64,000 bases of DNA from Modestobacter versicolor (lineage in GTDB: Bacteria; Actinomycetota; Actinomycetes; Mycobacteriales; Geodermatophilaceae), in contig NZ_JACIBU010000001.1 of the NCBI RefSeq assembly GCF_014195485.1, forward strand, positions 3,844,001 through 3,908,000, read 5' to 3'. The notes under the pieces were generated by a model that was not told the DNA's origin, did no database searches, and saw only the letters and a program-made list of their open reading frames with translations. Position numbers and translations under genes: made by a program. Shown here piece by piece: positions 6,933 to 27,903 of the stretch (position 1 is the stretch's first letter; each line of letters starts with the position of its first letter).

Positions 6933-7569
6933 CACCACCCCGGCCCGGCGCGAGGGCGGTGCCGTCGAGCGGCAGGCCGGCGCGCCGCCGACCCCGGCCG
7001 GCAAGCGCGCCAGCTGGCTGCCCGGCCCCGCCCAGGGGTTCGGCGTCACCTTCGCCACCATGTTCAAGAAGGTGACGACGGAGGAGTACCCCGACGTCCC
7101 GAAGCAGACGAAGCCGCGCTACCACGGCCGGCACGTGCTCAACCGGCACCCCGACGGGCTGGAGAAGTGCGTCGGCTGCGAGCTGTGCGCGTGGGCCTGC
7201 CCGGCCGACGCCATCTACGTCGAGGGCGGCGACAACACCGAGGACGCCCGGTACTCCCCGGGTGAGCGGTACGGCCGCGTCTACCAGATCAACTACCTGC
7301 GCTGCATCTTCTGCGGCCTGTGCATCGAGGCCTGCCCGACCCGCTCGCTGACGATGAGCAACGACTTCGAGCTCGCCGACGACGACCGGCAGGCGCTGAT
7401 CTACACCAAGGAGCAGCTGATGGCCCCGCTGCTGCCCGGCATGGAGCAGCCGCCGCACCCGATGCGGCTGGGCGACGACGAGAAGGACTACTACGTCCGC
7501 GACCCGAAGGCGCCGGTCGACGCGCTCGCGCACGCCGCCGCCGAGCCGGTCGTCGAGGAGCGGGTGTGA
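6925..7569 (+). CDS. nuoI: NADH-quinone oxidoreductase subunit I (2[4Fe-4S])
   Basis: This is the ferredoxin-like subunit carrying clusters N6a and N6b, which hand electrons towards NuoB. Two canonical CxxCxxCxxxCP motifs are seen: Cys82, 85, 88, 92 ([12 protein letters not shown]) and Cys127, 130, 133, 137 ([12 protein letters not shown]). The start ATG at 6925 has an AGGAGG Shine-Dalgarno at 6913-6918 and overlaps nuoH by 8 nt. Any earlier in-frame start would lie inside nuoH. The length of 214 residues includes a charged C-terminal tail of about 50 residues. The stop overlaps the nuoJ GTG start (GTGA). Confidence 0.97.
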
Positions 7570-22669: not shown

Positions 22670-22951
22670 ATGGCGATCGAGGTGGTCCCCGAGCAGCTGC
22701 ACGCCCTCGCCGGGGCGCTCGACGCGGCGTCGACCTCGGCCGCCCGGGCCGCTGCCGCGCTGGCCACCGACCCGGTCGGCGGCCCGGTGGGGGAGGCGGT
22801 CGCCGCGTTCTGCGAGGGCACCGGGGCGGCCGGCCGCTGCCTGGCCGGTGAGCTCGGCTGGCTCGGCCGGGCCGTCGCAGCGGCAGCCGACTCGTGGCTG
22901 GGTCTGGACGCCGGGCTGCTCCCCGTGCCGGGCCGGGGCGTCGCCGGGTGA
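22670..22951 (+). CDS. Small helical protein, type VII secretion target-like
   Basis: This is a 93-residue, Ala-rich, helix-turn-helix hairpin protein resembling the EspC/DUF2580 group of type VII (ESX) secretion targets. It starts VVPEQLHALAGALDAAS, has a turn at about 33-40 (TDPVGGPVG) and a second helix with WLG at 64-66. The ATG at 22670 is chosen because upstream codons encode Arg-rich shadow sequence. The stop overlaps the start of the 658-residue downstream gene as GTGA, so the two are coupled. The family call rests on size and pattern only; no ESX ATPase or EccC is in the window. Confidence 0.6.
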   Translation: MAIEVVPEQLHALAGALDAASTSAARAAAALATDPVGGPVGEAVAAFCEGTGAAGRCLAGELGWLGRAVAAAADSWLGLDAGLLPVPGRGVAG

Positions 22952-24924
22952 CGGTCACGCTGAGCCCGCCGCAGCCGCTGCCGCCACCGCCCGGTTCCGT
23001 GGCTGCCCTCGCCGCGGTGCTCGACCAGCTGGCCACCGCCGGCTTCGCTGCCGGGCTGACCACCCACCTGCTGGAGCCGGCGGCGGTGCTGCCGGGGTGG
23101 CAGGGCGCCGACGCGGCGGTCGCGGCGGCCGAGGTCGGGGCCGCGCTCGCCGTCGCCGCCGACCTGCACGACGCCCTCACCGCTGCGCACCTGCGGCTCG
23201 CCGACCACCACGAGCTGTGGTTGGCCGTGGCGGCGCGGGTCGGCGTGCTGGCCGACGAGCAGCGCGCCCGGTTCGCCGACGCCGGTGCCCGGCTGGCCGT
23301 GCTGGTCGGCCCGGCCGTCGACCTGGGCGCGCCGGGCGAGTCGCCGGAGGCGCGCCGGCTGGTCGAGGCGGTGGCCGAGCAGGACGCCGCCGCGGCCGGC
23401 GAGCACCGCGCCCTGCTGCAGGCGCTCACCGACGACGCCGCCGCGGCCGCGGCCGTGCTGGTCGCCGCGACCCGGCCGCTCGGCGGCACCGGCCGGCCCG
23501 GCGACGCGGTCGCGGTCACCGCGCGGCTCGCCGTCCAGCTGCCCGGCTGGGGCGCCGGCGCCCTGGCCGCCCTCGGTCGCCGGGCCGCCGACGAGCTCAC
23601 CGGCCCCGACGCGACGGGCGACCTGGCCGCCGCGGTGGCCAGGTGGCACGAGTGGGCGTCCGTGCCGGGCTTCGCCGACGCCCTGGTCGAGCGGCTCGGC
23701 GCCGACGGCCTCGGGTGGCTGCTCACCGTGCTCGGCGGGCTGGCCGGCACGGGGGAGGAGCAGCAGCTCGCGGGCCTGCTGGCGGGCGCGCTCAGCGGAG
23801 CGGGCGCCCGCACCGGCGAGGTCCTCGCGGCCTTCCGGCTCGACCCGGGTGCGCCCGGCGACGGAGCCGACGGGACGGCGGTGGCGATGGGGCTCGTGCT
23901 GGCCGCTCCCGCCGCGGGGCCCTCGCTGGCGGTGGCCTGGGGGCGCCAGCTGCTGGACCGCGAGGCGGCCCAGGCGGCCCGCGCCGGGGCCGGCTCGACC
24001 GGCGGGGCCCTGCTCGGCGACCCGGTGGAGGCGGCGCTGGCAGCGCTGGCCCGCTCCGGCGACCGCGCGGGGGCGGCGCAGCTGCTGGCCGACCCCGGCG
24101 CGTGGACGACCCTGCTGGCCCGGCCCTGGCCGGGCGGCACCGGGGCCCTCGCCGCGGTGGTCCAGCTCGCCGCCGCCGCGCCGGAGGCCGGCCGGGTCGC
24201 CCGGTCGGCGCTGCTGGCGCTCGGGCAGGGGCTGGCGCCCGGGAGCCCGGCCCGGGTGCTGGACGACCAGGGAGCGCTGGCCCGGCTGCGCCCCGCGGTC
24301 ACCGGCCTCGTCGCCGGCCAGCCGGGCGTCGTCCTGCCGGTGCTGGACGCCGCGGTCACCGGCGCACCGCTGGACGCCGGCGGGGACGCCGCGCTGCGCG
24401 GGCTGGGCTACCTGGTCACCGACGAGGACGCCGCCACGGAGCTGACCGCCGCCGTGCGGGGTGCGCTGCAGACCGGCGCGGCGGGCGGCTTCGCCGGGGA
24501 GGTGGCCGGGGCGCACGTCGCCGTGCTCGAGTACGGCCAGCGGCTGCGGTACGCGCTGGAGTGGAGCCAGGCGCAGAGCTGGGCCGTCGACCTGCAGATG
24601 CCGTGGCAGCTGGCGGTCAGCGCGCCGCTGTCGGCGGTGCCGGGGGTGGCGGGGGAGCTGGCCGGCGCGGTCGAGGGCGTGGCCGCCGACCTGCTGGGTA
24701 CGAACGGGGAGGTGGAGATCGGGCCGGACACCGGCATCGTCCGGACCGGCGTGGACGCGGCCGGGTTCGCGGCCGGCGCGCTCGGTCCGGCGGCGGCCCC
24801 CGCCGCGCGGGCGGGCTTCGACCGTGCGGGCGCGCTGCTCGGCGGGCTCACCGCCCCGCAACCGTCGCTGCTGGACCGGATGACCGACCTGGAGCTGCCC
24901 GACCCCTTCCGCAGGCGTCGGTGA
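22948..24924 (+). CDS. Large Ala-rich protein of unknown function, coupled to a type VII-target-like gene
   Basis: This is a 658-residue protein that is extremely rich in Ala, Gly and Leu. It begins with a short proline tract (SPPQPLPPPPG), followed by a helical region with a WQG motif at residues 51-53 of the WXG kind. It then has long amphipathic helices and ends in a basic DPFRRRR. No transmembrane helix, signal peptide or catalytic motif is evident. Translation starts at GTG within the stop of the preceding gene. The arrangement (small EspC-like protein, then a large protein with an N-terminal WXG-like hairpin) resembles actinobacterial ESX substrate/chaperone pairs or polymorphic-toxin-like cassettes. 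This is inference. An alternative is a structural or scaffolding protein. Confidence 0.55.
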   Translation: MTVTLSPPQPLPPPPGSVAALAAVLDQLATAGFAAGLTTHLLEPAAVLPGWQGADAAVAAAEVGAALAVAADLHDALTAAHLRLADHHELWLAVAARVGVLADEQRARFADAGARLAVLVGPAVDLGAPGESPEARRLVEAVAEQDAAAAGEHRALLQALTDDAAAAAAVLVAATRPLGGTGRPGDAVAVTARLAVQLPGWGAGALAALGRRAADELTGPDATGDLAAAVARWHEWASVPGFADALVERLGADGLGWLLTVLGGLAGTGEEQQLAGLLAGALSGAGARTGEVLAAFRLDPGAPGDGADGTAVAMGLVLAAPAAGPSLAVAWGRQLLDREAAQAARAGAGSTGGALLGDPVEAALAALARSGDRAGAAQLLADPGAWTTLLARPWPGGTGALAAVVQLAAAAPEAGRVARSALLALGQGLAPGSPARVLDDQGALARLRPAVTGLVAGQPGVVLPVLDAAVTGAPLDAGGDAALRGLGYLVTDEDAATELTAAVRGALQTGAAGGFAGEVAGAHVAVLEYGQRLRYALEWSQAQSWAVDLQMPWQLAVSAPLSAVPGVAGELAGAVEGVAADLLGTNGEVEIGPDTGIVRTGVDAAGFAAGALGPAAAPAARAGFDRAGALLGGLTAPQPSLLDRMTDLELPDPFRRRR

Positions 24925-24975: not shown

Positions 24976-25001
24976 TGTCGTCATCACGCACGGTGACGAC
25001 A
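24976..25001. promoter_or_regulatory. Inverted repeat upstream of the 29-residue peptide gene
   Basis: TGTCGTCA (24976-24983) and TGACGACA (24994-25001) form a perfect 8-bp dyad with a 10-bp spacer, the geometry of a dimeric repressor site. A looser, long-range pair GGTCACCC (24950-24957) and GGGTGACC (25047-25054) surrounds it. A possible promoter TTGCCC (25036-25041) and TGCATT (25058-25063), spacing 16, lies downstream. The 226-bp stretch 24925-25150 contains no other supported gene. Confidence 0.35.
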
Positions 25002-25150
25002 CGGCGAAGATCACTTCACCGGGTCGTGTCAATGCTTGCCCCGTGTGGGTGACCCCCTGCATTCTCATGGTTGCGGTCTGTGCCGGACATCGCTCTGCCC
25101 CCGCGTGGGCGGCTGCCGCGATCCGTTCGCCACGTCTCGAGGAGATCCCG

Positions 25151-25240
25151 ATGTCCGCACGCACCTCTGTCACCGTCACCACCGCCGACTCCTCCGCCCG
25201 TGGCTGGAAGTGGGGCCGGGGCTGGAAGTGGGGTCGCTGA
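25151..25240 (+). CDS. 29-residue peptide with duplicated GWKWGR motif
   Basis: This is a tiny gene supported by an AGGAG ribosome site (ending about 7 nt before the ATG), a complete short frame and an independent perfect terminator 18 nt after the stop. The N-terminal 17 residues (MSARTSVTVTTADSSAR) are Ser/Thr-rich. The rest is a tandem repeat, GWKWGR twice, encoded by two nearly identical 18-nt units (25203-25220 and 25221-25238). The C-terminal half is strongly cationic and has four Trp codons. It could be a secreted or modified antimicrobial or signal peptide, a leader-and-core RiPP precursor (no modifying enzyme is adjacent), or a Trp-coding attenuator leader. I do not recognise a family. 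Confidence 0.65.
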   Translation: MSARTSVTVTTADSSARGWKWGRGWKWGR

Positions 25241-25258
25241 CCTCCTGGCTCTGACCTG

Positions 25259-25290
25259 ACGGAGCAGCCCGGCACGACGGGCTGCTCCGT
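25259..25290 (+). terminator. Perfect 13-bp terminator after the peptide gene
   Basis: ACGGAGCAGCCCG (25259-25271) and CGGGCTGCTCCGT (25278-25290) pair without mismatch around a 6-nt loop. It separates the peptide gene from the GGDEF-EAL gene, whose start is 45 nt further on. GGGCTG at 25218-25223 inside the peptide gene could compete for CAGCCC in the left arm, as an antiterminator would. Confidence 0.85.
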
Positions 25291-25335
25291 CCGGGTGAGC
25301 CGCACCCCCACGGTCGCTTCGCACTGTTACCTTCG

Positions 25336-27903
25336 GTGAACGCCGAATCGACAGACAGGCTGACCGTGGCCCAGCTCGCGGCTCCCGCGCAGCCGGGAGC
25401 GTCACTGATCCGACGGCCATGGACCATCGCCGGGCTGGCGATCGTCGTGACCGTTGCCGTAGGCGTGCCCACCTTCCCCTCGGCGTGGACCACCCCGTCA
25501 CCGTGGATGGTCGCGGTCCTGCTCGCCGTGCTGGTGCTCACCGAGTCCGTCCAGCTGGACCTCGAGGTCGGCAAGCAGACGATCTCCCTGTCGCCCACCG
25601 AGATCGCCGTGGTGGTCGGCCTGGTCGAGGTCGGCGGCACGTGGACCGCGATCGCCCGCGTCGTCGCGATCGTCGCGGTGATGTCGTGGCAGGGGTACCC
25701 GGCGGCCAAGCTCGCCTTCAACGCCGCGCTCGGCGTCGCCGAGCTCGCCGCCGCGCTGGCCGTGCTCTCGCTCTTCCCCCCGCTGGACGTCACCGACCCG
25801 ATCACCTGGGTGTCGCTGGCGGTCGCGACGTTCGTCACCCACGTGGTGGGGATGGCCGGCGTCGGGGTGGCGATCACCCTGAGCCAGGGCTTCCCCGGCT
25901 GGTCGTTCTGGGTCGCCGCCCTGCCGAACACCGTGGTCGGGCCGCTGAGCGTCGTCGTCGGCGTGATCGCCATGCTGCTGGTCGAGGAGAACAGCTGGGC
26001 GTGGTCCCTCATCGTCCCGCTGCTGCTCGGCTTCATCGCCATCTTCCGGCTCTCCAGCCGCGCCTCGCGCGAACGGCGGACCGTCCAGCGGGTGTACGAC
26101 TTCGCCCGGCGGGTCGAGCTGGTCAGCCCCGACGACGAGGGCACCCGGGAGATCGTCCGGGCCGTCCGCGAGCTGCTCAACGCCGACCGGGTGGCCCTCT
26201 GGCTGCCGCCCTACCTGGACGAGGGGCCGCAGCTCGTCGTCGACGGCGAGGGCGACCCGCAGTGGTACGAGGGCCCGGGTGACCCCGACGACCTGATCCG
26301 CCGCCGCGCGCTGGTCTCCGACGGTGAGGGCCCGGTGCTCGTCTCCGACGCCCGCGCCGACGAGGCCGAGCTGGCCGCCCTCCGCCGGCGCGGCGCCCGC
26401 GAGGTGCTGGGCGCCCCGGTGACCACCGCCGCCGGCGAGCCGGGCTACCTCGAGGTCTGCGACCGGCGCTCGGACATCGTCAGCTTCACCTCCGGCGACC
26501 GCGGCGCGCTGGAGTCGGTGCTCACCCACGTCAACGCCGCGATCCGGCAGCAGCAGCTGCTGAGCCAGATCCGCCACGACGCCGACCACGACCGGCTGAC
26601 CGGCCTGCCGAACCGCCAGCGCCTGGCCGTCGAGATCGACGCGCTGCTGCTGGCCGAGCCGGCGACCGCCCGGGCCGGCCTGGTCCTCGCCGCGCTCGAC
26701 GGGTACACGAACGTCACCGACACCCTCGGCCACGCGGCCAGCGACGAGCTGCTGCTGGTCACCGCGGGGCTGCTCCGCGAGCACGCGCCGCCGCAGGCCC
26801 TCGTCGCCCGGATGGAGGGCGGCCAGTTCGCCGTCCTGCTGCCCGGCCTGTCGCTGCCGGCGACCGAGCGCGCTGCCCGCCGGCTGCGCGAGGCCGCCTC
26901 CACCCGGGCCCGGGTCGCCGGCCTGGACCTGGAGGTGTCGCTGACCATCGGGGTGGCGGCGGCCCCGGTGCACGGCTCGGACGCCGGCACGCTCATCCAG
27001 CGGGCCGACGTCGCGCTGCTCGCCGCGCACAGCTCCGGTGGGGTGGCCACCTACCACCCGGTGCTCGACCAGCAGAGCCTGCGCCGGCTGCAGCTGGGCA
27101 CCGAGCTGGAGACGGCGATGGCCGAGGGTCAGATCACCGTGGTCTTCCAGCCGATCATCGACACCCGCACCGCCGACATCGTCTCGGTGGAGACGCTGGT
27201 CCGCTGGGCCCACCCGCGCTACGGCGACATCCCGCCGGACGACTTCATCAGCCTCGCCGAGCAGATCGGCCGGATCGGGCCGCTCACCGACCACGTGCTG
27301 GACCGGGCGCTGGACCGCTGCCGGCGCTGGCTGGACCAGGACATCGCGCTCTCGGTCGCGGTCAACCTCTCGGCCCGCTGCCTGGCCGAGCCCGACCTGG
27401 TCGCGCGGGTCCGCAACGCGCTGCGGCACCACGGCGTGCCCGGTGAGCTGCTGACCCTGGAGCTCACCGAGGGCAGCGTCGTCGACGACACCGTGCGCAA
27501 CAGCACGGTGCTGGCCGACCTGCACGCCCTCGGGCTCCGGTTGTCGATGGACGACTTCGGCACCGGCTACTCGTCGCTGTCCCAGCTGCGCCAGCTGCCG
27601 ATCGACGAGCTGAAGATCGACAAGTCCTTCGTGCTGGGCATGTCCACCAGCCAGAACGAGTCCTTCATCGCCCGGTCGATCGTCGAGCTCGCCCACAACC
27701 TCGGCCTGCGGGTGGTGGCCGAGGGCGTCGAGGACGAGGTCACCCGCGACCTGCTGGCCCAGATGGGCTGCGACAAGCTGCAGGGCTTCCTGGTCAGCCG
27801 CCCGCTCCCGGAGGACCGGCTGGAGGGCTGGCTGCTGGCCCGTACCGGCGTCCGCAGCGCGGCCCCCGGGGCCCGGCACCGCCGTCTGTTCGTCCGGACC
27901 TAG
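25336..27903 (+). CDS. Membrane GGDEF-EAL protein, predicted c-di-GMP phosphodiesterase
   Basis: This 855-residue protein has about six to eight transmembrane helices (residues 28-245) and a GAF-like sensor region (about 255-400). A GGDEF domain (about 410-570) and an EAL domain (about 590-840) follow. The GGDEF active site is degenerate, reading EGGQF at 494-498, so no diguanylate cyclase activity is expected. The EAL domain keeps the key residues: Glu619 in ETLVRW, Asn in VNLSARCL, Glu in LELTEG, the DD of MDDFGTGYSS, Lys in LKIDKSF, Glu in AEGVED and Gln in LQGFLVSRP. It should hydrolyse c-di-GMP. The start is GTG 25336 with no Shine-Dalgarno; TGTTAC 5 nt upstream hints at leaderless expression. 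Confidence 0.9.
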   Translation: MNAESTDRLTVAQLAAPAQPGASLIRRPWTIAGLAIVVTVAVGVPTFPSAWTTPSPWMVAVLLAVLVLTESVQLDLEVGKQTISLSPTEIAVVVGLVEVGGTWTAIARVVAIVAVMSWQGYPAAKLAFNAALGVAELAAALAVLSLFPPLDVTDPITWVSLAVATFVTHVVGMAGVGVAITLSQGFPGWSFWVAALPNTVVGPLSVVVGVIAMLLVEENSWAWSLIVPLLLGFIAIFRLSSRASRERRTVQRVYDFARRVELVSPDDEGTREIVRAVRELLNADRVALWLPPYLDEGPQLVVDGEGDPQWYEGPGDPDDLIRRRALVSDGEGPVLVSDARADEAELAALRRRGAREVLGAPVTTAAGEPGYLEVCDRRSDIVSFTSGDRGALESVLTHVNAAIRQQQLLSQIRHDADHDRLTGLPNRQRLAVEIDALLLAEPATARAGLVLAALDGYTNVTDTLGHAASDELLLVTAGLLREHAPPQALVARMEGGQFAVLLPGLSLPATERAARRLREAASTRARVAGLDLEVSLTIGVAAAPVHGSDAGTLIQRADVALLAAHSSGGVATYHPVLDQQSLRRLQLGTELETAMAEGQITVVFQPIIDTRTADIVSVETLVRWAHPRYGDIPPDDFISLAEQIGRIGPLTDHVLDRALDRCRRWLDQDIALSVAVNLSARCLAEPDLVARVRNALRHHGVPGELLTLELTEGSVVDDTVRNSTVLADLHALGLRLSMDDFGTGYSSLSQLRQLPIDELKIDKSFVLGMSTSQNESFIARSIVELAHNLGLRVVAEGVEDEVTRDLLAQMGCDKLQGFLVSRPLPEDRLEGWLLARTGVRSAAPGARHRRLFVRT

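Follow-up and report, generated by a model that had tools for sequence, protein, structure and literature searches.

A small open reading frame (25151-25240, plus strand) in the 64,000-nucleotide stretch of Modestobacter versicolor DNA analysed here (the window) is probably, at roughly 0.6, a minimal multi-copy precursor of a tryptophan pentapeptide signal; the gene behind it would encode the receptor, a c-di-GMP phosphodiesterase. Each repeat unit would consist of a pentapeptide core, mostly G-x-[KR]-W-z (here GWKWG), between single arginines. Because single Arg residues bound the cores, cleavage at Arg would free identical pentapeptides. The peptide would be exported and would be bound by the membrane domain of the neighbouring protein, which has the predicted fold of the vitamin-binding ECF S-components; its state would be passed through a GAF and a degenerate GGDEF domain to an EAL phosphodiesterase. 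As the motifs of the EAL domain are intact, it presumably lowers c-di-GMP. In other actinobacteria, this type of putative receptor often stands behind a subtilisin-like protease with C-terminal cores or behind a small secreted precursor.

The frame translates to MSARTSVTVTTADSSARGWKWGRGWKWGR (29 amino acids) and is preceded by a Shine-Dalgarno sequence, AGGAG (25140-25144); a ribosome-binding-like sequence is found ahead of the start in 27 loci. Repeat unit 1 (25202-25219) consists of the core GWKWG (25202-25216) and an Arg, and follows Arg17; repeat unit 2 (25220-25237) consists of the same core (25220-25234) and an Arg. Both GWKWGR units are recovered as an 18-nt direct repeat. The first-pass annotation had listed the AGGAG site, the 30-codon frame and the two units, and all of these are confirmed; the GGGCTG sequence that it placed at 25218-25223 is present but lies at 25219-25224, one base off. 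It had also judged so compact a unit to be no accident. This holds: the frame and the repeat design are conserved across the family, which puts the feature far beyond chance, and the small gene is real.

Further upstream, TTGCCC (25036-25041) and CATTCT (25060-25065) are separated by 18 nt and form a promoter-like element (25036-25065, plus strand), the block being conserved in an alignment of 19 same-genus loci; from its sequence, it is a putative promoter. GTGAC/TCAC-like sequences near it (about 24990-25065, and in orthologs) resemble binding sites of the c-di-GMP-dependent regulator BldD. A 676-aa ORF at 22894-24924 has no Pfam or NCBIfam match; its homologs are found at 20 of 56 named loci and at 13 of the 32 loci with at least 2.5 kb of upstream sequence. 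On the other side, the c-di-GMP gene is followed by tRNA-Thr, tRNA-Met, L33, tRNA-Trp, NusG and L1 (28020-35174). The tRNA-Trp gene stands among translation genes and probably has nothing to do with the Trp repeats.

A GWKWGR-type repeat, to be expected in relatives if the first-pass annotation was right about the peptide, is found in 22 of 23 same-genus genomes (protein search and upstream-DNA search combined) and in all of the 101 family genomes (of 112) that carry the leader described below. The one same-genus genome without the ORF (G019) is 70% complete. The 101 genomes yield 102 parsed orthologous ORFs, since the draft genome G415 has two. The peptide loci are labelled Modestobacter, Blastococcus, Geodermatophilus, Klenkia and Goekera, with one "Bacillus sp. 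AZ43" and one Geodermatophilaceae (56 loci in 61 stretches). The 102 peptides are 18-42 aa long and have one to five copies of the unit: one copy in 1, two in 35, three in 42, four in 21 and five in 3. Residues 1-17, formerly proposed as a leader, differ in both length and sequence between species, and no conserved leader is found there. Cysteine is absent from the window peptide and occurs in only 8 of the 102 orthologs. No signal peptide is recognisable in the 102 family peptides by hydropathy, a measure distinct from a signal-peptide predictor; their maximum over 12 residues is 1.07, against 2.3-3.1 in five distant relatives judged to be secreted.

Variants of the locus are found outside the leader-bearing genera. 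Genome G428 (genus g6) has two receptor genes with a repeat peptide before each (cores NGRWG and AGRWG); the two loci may be from different organisms, as this draft is 82% complete and 5% contaminated. Genera g8 (three genomes) and g10 (one genome) also have Trp repeats ahead of the receptor. In G431 and G031, the repeats (GVSWN or GVSWG) lie at the end of a small protein whose N-terminus is hydrophobic and resembles a signal peptide; the contigs of G430 and G432 break off within the Trp repeats. Upstream of eight divergent family paralogs, one of which has only 216 nt of upstream sequence, a search with the hexad-repeat pattern found none.

Unit positions were scored on one consensus unit per gene in the 102 peptides. 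Position 4 is Trp in every one (102/102), position 3 is Lys or Arg in 97, position 5 is Gly, Ser, Thr or Asn in 98, and 77 have Gly at position 1; at position 2, 14 different residues occur over the 102 genes. Position 6 is Arg in 100 of 101. An Arg stands ahead of the first unit in 93 of the 102 orthologs, and in 27 the peptide ends directly after position 5. From these counts, what is conserved is a pentapeptide, x-x-[KR]-W-z, flanked by Arg, mostly G-x-[KR]-W-z. Two irregular members (G433 and G371) keep the core with broken spacing.

Adjacent units of the same gene (194 pairs) differ by 272 synonymous changes over 769 sites and by 33 nonsynonymous changes over 2645 sites, giving pS 0.354, pN 0.012 and pN/pS 0.035; 35 of the pairs are identical in DNA. 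The pN count includes false nonsynonymous differences from G014, whose first unit has decayed to PWKSGR and which the unit finder mis-phased. Eight of the 110 parsed loci, being second leader copies or chance model matches without a repeat peptide, were excluded. Substitutions neutral with respect to codon position had been named as evidence against a peptide gene; the pS and pN values show the opposite, and the identical cores are under selection at the amino-acid level. Core residues x and z vary among species, yet they are near-identical within a gene, and Lys-Arg switches use AAG and CGC codons. The copies are old, yet nearly identical even at positions that are free to differ between species. 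This is predicted by several copies of one product and not by classical attenuation or slippage.

The gene is preceded by a highly conserved 48-nt 5' leader (25073-25120, plus strand) with the core GCTCTGCCCCCGC (25092-25104). The covariance model R1, built on the leader together with the start region, matches 101 of 112 family genomes, and 92 of the 96 that are of good quality; the receptor domain, too, is missing from six of the 11 leaderless family genomes. Among 397 genomes sampled from the order, the leader model has three weak matches outside the family, none followed by a repeat peptide. A search of Rfam with the leader found no family above chance, only weak miRNA matches that were taken as chance. 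The leader was also considered as a structured riboswitch and rejected as such; of 12 predicted pairs, just one has changed on both sides, and shuffles show nearly as much covariation. It is not required for the peptide to exist, as one peptide-receptor locus of G428 has more than 800 nt of upstream sequence without it (the second locus is cut by a contig end). Two Geodermatophilus genomes carry a second leader copy near the peptide locus (L077, near 7245-7310 on the minus strand, and L208, from G327b). These copies precede a different small protein, the C-terminal half of which is hydrophobic.

The downstream gene (25366-27903, plus strand) encodes a protein with an S-component-like membrane domain followed by GAF, GGDEF and EAL domains (the last three by Pfam), and is the proposed peptide receptor and c-di-GMP phosphodiesterase. 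The first-pass annotation had already called it a c-di-GMP phosphodiesterase, a role that the intact EAL motifs make likely. These motifs are intact in 38 of 39 family proteins, whereas the GGDEF site is degenerate in all 39. The membrane domain (25366-26115) is the proposed peptide-binding part and evolves fast: mean domain distances among the 39 proteins are 0.58 for the membrane domain, 0.26 for GAF, 0.14 for GGDEF and 0.12 for EAL. A structure model gives it the fold of an ECF S-component. Among 14 members of the alignment, PF07694 is not one of the families matched at E up to 1, and PF12822 has a weak match in two (best E 0.001). Behind 101 of the 102 peptides lies the receptor membrane domain, in an open frame that starts at most 191 nt past the stop; the single miss is a contig edge. 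The link to c-di-GMP turnover that had been suggested stands in the form of this conserved gene pair, but not by way of attenuation. However, tRNA-Thr and tRNA-Met also follow in 37 of 37 loci; the gene order around the locus is stable, so that adjacency within the family says little alone and the wider recurrence carries the argument.

Peptide core and receptor change together. At class-level loci with a core (n=35), receptor and core distances are correlated (0.33; 0 of 2000 permutations). Receptor pairs from different genomes share their core in all of the seven closest cases (distance at most 0.21), although these pairs are not independent and three are from one genome trio. The two members share their core in 8 of 18 cross-genome pairs with a distance below 0.5, in none of 556 farther pairs, and in one of 21 within-genome paralog pairs. 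Within the receptor, peptide distance follows the membrane domain when GAF, GGDEF and EAL are controlled for (partial correlation 0.263; 0 of 1000 permutations), which is not proof of coevolution, since no other part of the protein is so fast a clock. The corresponding permutation counts for the other domains are 76 of 1000 for GAF (0.095), 757 of 1000 for GGDEF and 512 of 1000 for EAL. The membrane domain is therefore the only one that clearly tracks the peptide after controls. The upstream neighbour gene, as an independent rate control, gave 10 usable loci only. The tracking of the core by the membrane domain fits a ligand-receptor pair, and a membrane part that changes with the peptide suggests a peptide signal and receptor that have not been described.

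The alignment of the membrane domain was used to search samples of the class (296 genomes) and of the phylum (396 genomes), which overlap; the receptor domain is found in 35 and 52 genomes, respectively. Leaving out upstream stretches shorter than 100 nt, 64 class-level receptors were used. At least four Trp at a period of 5 or 6 occur within 1.5 kb upstream of 27 of these on the sense strand and of none on the antisense strand, and 35 of the 64 have a repeated xxxWx 5-mer in an ORF that ends at most 450 nt upstream. The criterion for the phylum was fixed on the class data before new loci were examined. The phylum set comprises 26 new loci, each the best of its genome among the loci returned from 52 matching genomes; one with 9 nt upstream (L398) was skipped. 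A repeated Trp 5-mer is found upstream of 14 of the remaining 25 in sense and of none in antisense. Conversely, no repeated Trp 5-mer is found upstream of 29 of the 64 class-level and 11 of the 25 phylum-level receptors. Possible chance matches are G442c (STAWC twice), G1034 and G839.

The search was also run in reverse, from the pattern of Trp codons. Only the 20 returned loci of the five-fold TGG pattern were used because the pattern is too noisy to count: 231 of 296 genomes matched, and matches to the reversed control were also widespread. A receptor-domain gene lies behind four of the five loci with at least nine periodic Trp (E 3e-39, 7e-12, 5e-8 and 9e-5), one of which (L362) was already in the receptor set; L355 has nine periodic Trp and no receptor gene behind. 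None of the 15 remaining loci has a receptor-domain gene behind it, and a run of Trp at period 5 is present in at least one frame of 16 of the 20.

Many of the upstream ORFs resemble the C-terminal tails of subtilases, with repeats of GLRWN, GSSWR or GASWT (mostly judged by eye); two tails that were tested match Peptidase_S8 in Pfam (E 7.7e-40 and 3.3e-41). Such tails carry up to 22 copies, and the long ones look structural as much as signal-like. Others are small precursors with a hydrophobic N-terminus, seen by eye and with hydropathy computed for four of the six (cores GATWN, GSGWH, SNGWQ, SHTWE, GTSWH and GTRWG); the small precursor with GTGWH lacks a hydrophobic N-terminus. The four copies of SNGWQ use the serine codons TCC, TCG, AGC and TCT, with 14 synonymous and no nonsynonymous differences over six pairs. 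Of the seven distant small precursors, the cores of which were picked by eye, five have synonymous core differences and two have DNA-identical cores; a core has changed only in G440b (AATWN). The spacers of G487, G460b, G471e and G499 vary in length or sequence, those of G440b are partly repeated and those of G474 are the same; G456 has just one spacer. Four genomes (G471, G485, G489 and G496) have up to five receptor genes each, with mostly different cores upstream, and each of these sets is a repertoire of pairs.

The first-pass annotation had set a Trp-sensing leader peptide against a peptide product, with a transcription attenuator that would control the c-di-GMP gene. The four Trp codons suit this idea, as does the hairpin that follows 14-18 nt after the stop: a terminator-like inverted repeat without a U tract (25255-25294, plus strand; arms 25255-25271 and 25278-25294), correctly noted before, with 14 uninterrupted pairs when G-U is allowed. 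A stem of at least 10 pairs within 75 nt past the stop is present at 64 of 101 orthologous loci (G406 is omitted from this and the following counts for its contig end), against 4% of mononucleotide shuffles; a run of four U follows the hairpin at one of the 101. Attenuation is nevertheless very improbable. As an antiterminator, the repeats pair with their own terminator arm no better than with the terminators of other genomes put in its place (mean percentile 0.51). The downstream gene has a promoter-like motif of its own, TGTTACCTT (25325-25333, plus strand), a probable extended -10; a motif of this type occurs within 260 nt past the stop at 100 of 101 loci, against 3% in shuffles. The non-Trp residues are kept identical between copies, and all unit positions are conserved, beyond the control codons. 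In many members a unit contains one Trp, and the whole peptide of G030 has a single one. A neutral slippage repeat or chance ORF, to which the 18-nt unit and its variable copy number might point, has next to no probability left and was rejected on the pN/pS of 0.035, the Lys-Arg codon switches and the conservation across the family. What is supported is a real small gene for a peptide that has a terminator-like hairpin of its own, and of the functions that had been offered for it, a signal-like one fits best.

Other readings accept a peptide product and differ in what it does. Multi-core RiPP precursors have variable copy numbers and conserved spacing. The variable copy number, the conserved Trp-x-Arg spacing and the cationic, Trp-rich composition would thus agree with a modified natural product or antimicrobial peptide in which the repeats are multiple cores. 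This is improbable, as there is no conserved leader, the constant partner is a c-di-GMP enzyme and neither a maturase nor a transporter, and a Pfam search of 12 neighbouring ORFs (several of which are perhaps not genes) found no modifying enzyme or maturase. We give equally little weight to an adhesive or matrix polypeptide produced under joint regulation with c-di-GMP: relatives do have long low-complexity tails of up to 22 copies, but family peptides have just 18-42 aa and one to five copies, and neither the species-specific identity of the units nor the core-receptor linkage is expected of a matrix protein. A reading in which sensing is cell-autonomous fares better, though it is still unlikely. 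The Trp repeats would be an extracellular tail or substrate that is read by the membrane neighbour in the same cell, with no diffusible signal; their presence, cleavage or attachment might report, for example, protease activity or the state of the envelope. The repeats of many relatives lie at the end of a subtilase-like ORF, and the core-receptor linkage fits this equally. On the other hand, a released peptide agrees better with the small precursors that stand alone and have identical cores set apart by spacers, and with the 29-aa form found here, which has no protease.

Several known systems resemble the proposed signal precursor and receptor in part. RRNPPA receptors are cytoplasmic TPR proteins; the partner here is instead a membrane S-component-like GGDEF-EAL protein. 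In yeast alpha-factor, Trp is present in the peptide, cleavage is at basic residues and the receptor is a GPCR. AgrD-type signals are cyclic thiolactone peptides which contain Cys and have AgrB and AgrC adjacent, unlike the window peptide, which lacks Cys and has neither as its neighbour.

As outlined in one account, the Phr/RRNPPA propeptides yield a linear pheromone of 5-10 aa, are encoded beside the receptor gene and hold one to four identical or slightly altered copies (PMC11343458). The same outline gives propeptides of 50-120 aa, Sec export, Opp import, and receptors that act on DNA or protein targets (PMC11343458). To that extent, a short peptide encoded beside its receptor, tandem copies and pair-specific recognition would be common to both systems (PMC11343458). 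By the lengths given there, the family peptides (18-42 aa, 29 aa in the window, without a strongly hydrophobic stretch) differ from propeptides of 50-120 aa with a Sec signal; secreted precursor forms are found only at the more distant loci. The conserved core here is 5 aa in one to five copies, compared with the 5-10 aa and one to four copies outlined for the pheromones. The alpha-factor precursor MFalpha1 is described as containing several peptide repeats, with copy numbers that differ among close relatives (PMC5850478); on that description it is alike in carrying signal repeats in one precursor, but it is eukaryotic and has no sequence relation. Receptors of the 5TMR-LYT type are described as having an S-component-like membrane domain fused to GAF, GGDEF or EAL; the passages on them mention neither a peptide ligand nor a linked peptide gene (PMC11109136). 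The domain combination so described is like the one here, which has no PF07694 match. Known c-di-GMP stimuli act through sensors that control c-di-GMP enzymes, as the proposed receptor would. In the main text of a review on these stimuli, a word search found none of six terms, among them pheromone, oligopeptide, autoinducing peptide and peptide signal (PMC8846402). A limited search of the open-access literature, which is weak evidence of absence, found no match to this system, and no peptide signal with direct action on a GGDEF/EAL protein.

That a peptide may be encoded beside its receptor is already known in general. The present system does not have the full set of features of any known family. 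Membership in the Phr/RRNPPA, alpha-factor or 5TMR-LYT families is not claimed; tandem Phr propeptides and yeast alpha-factor may serve as the best functional analogies. A broader proposal, to which we give slightly less than even odds, is that of a widespread form of actinobacterial cell-cell signalling. Membrane domains resembling ECF S-components would recognise linear Trp-centred pentapeptides from multi-copy precursors (stand-alone, secreted, or self-processed subtilase tails) and would gate a c-di-GMP phosphodiesterase directly; one genome would hold several paralogous peptide-receptor pairs that differ in specificity. For many c-di-GMP enzymes we know of no ligand. If the proposal is true, it would supply many ligand-receptor pairs for testing, the ligand of each being evident from the DNA adjoining the receptor. 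It would also give the S-component fold a use as a receptor, and core positions 2 and 5 would hold a natural specificity code.
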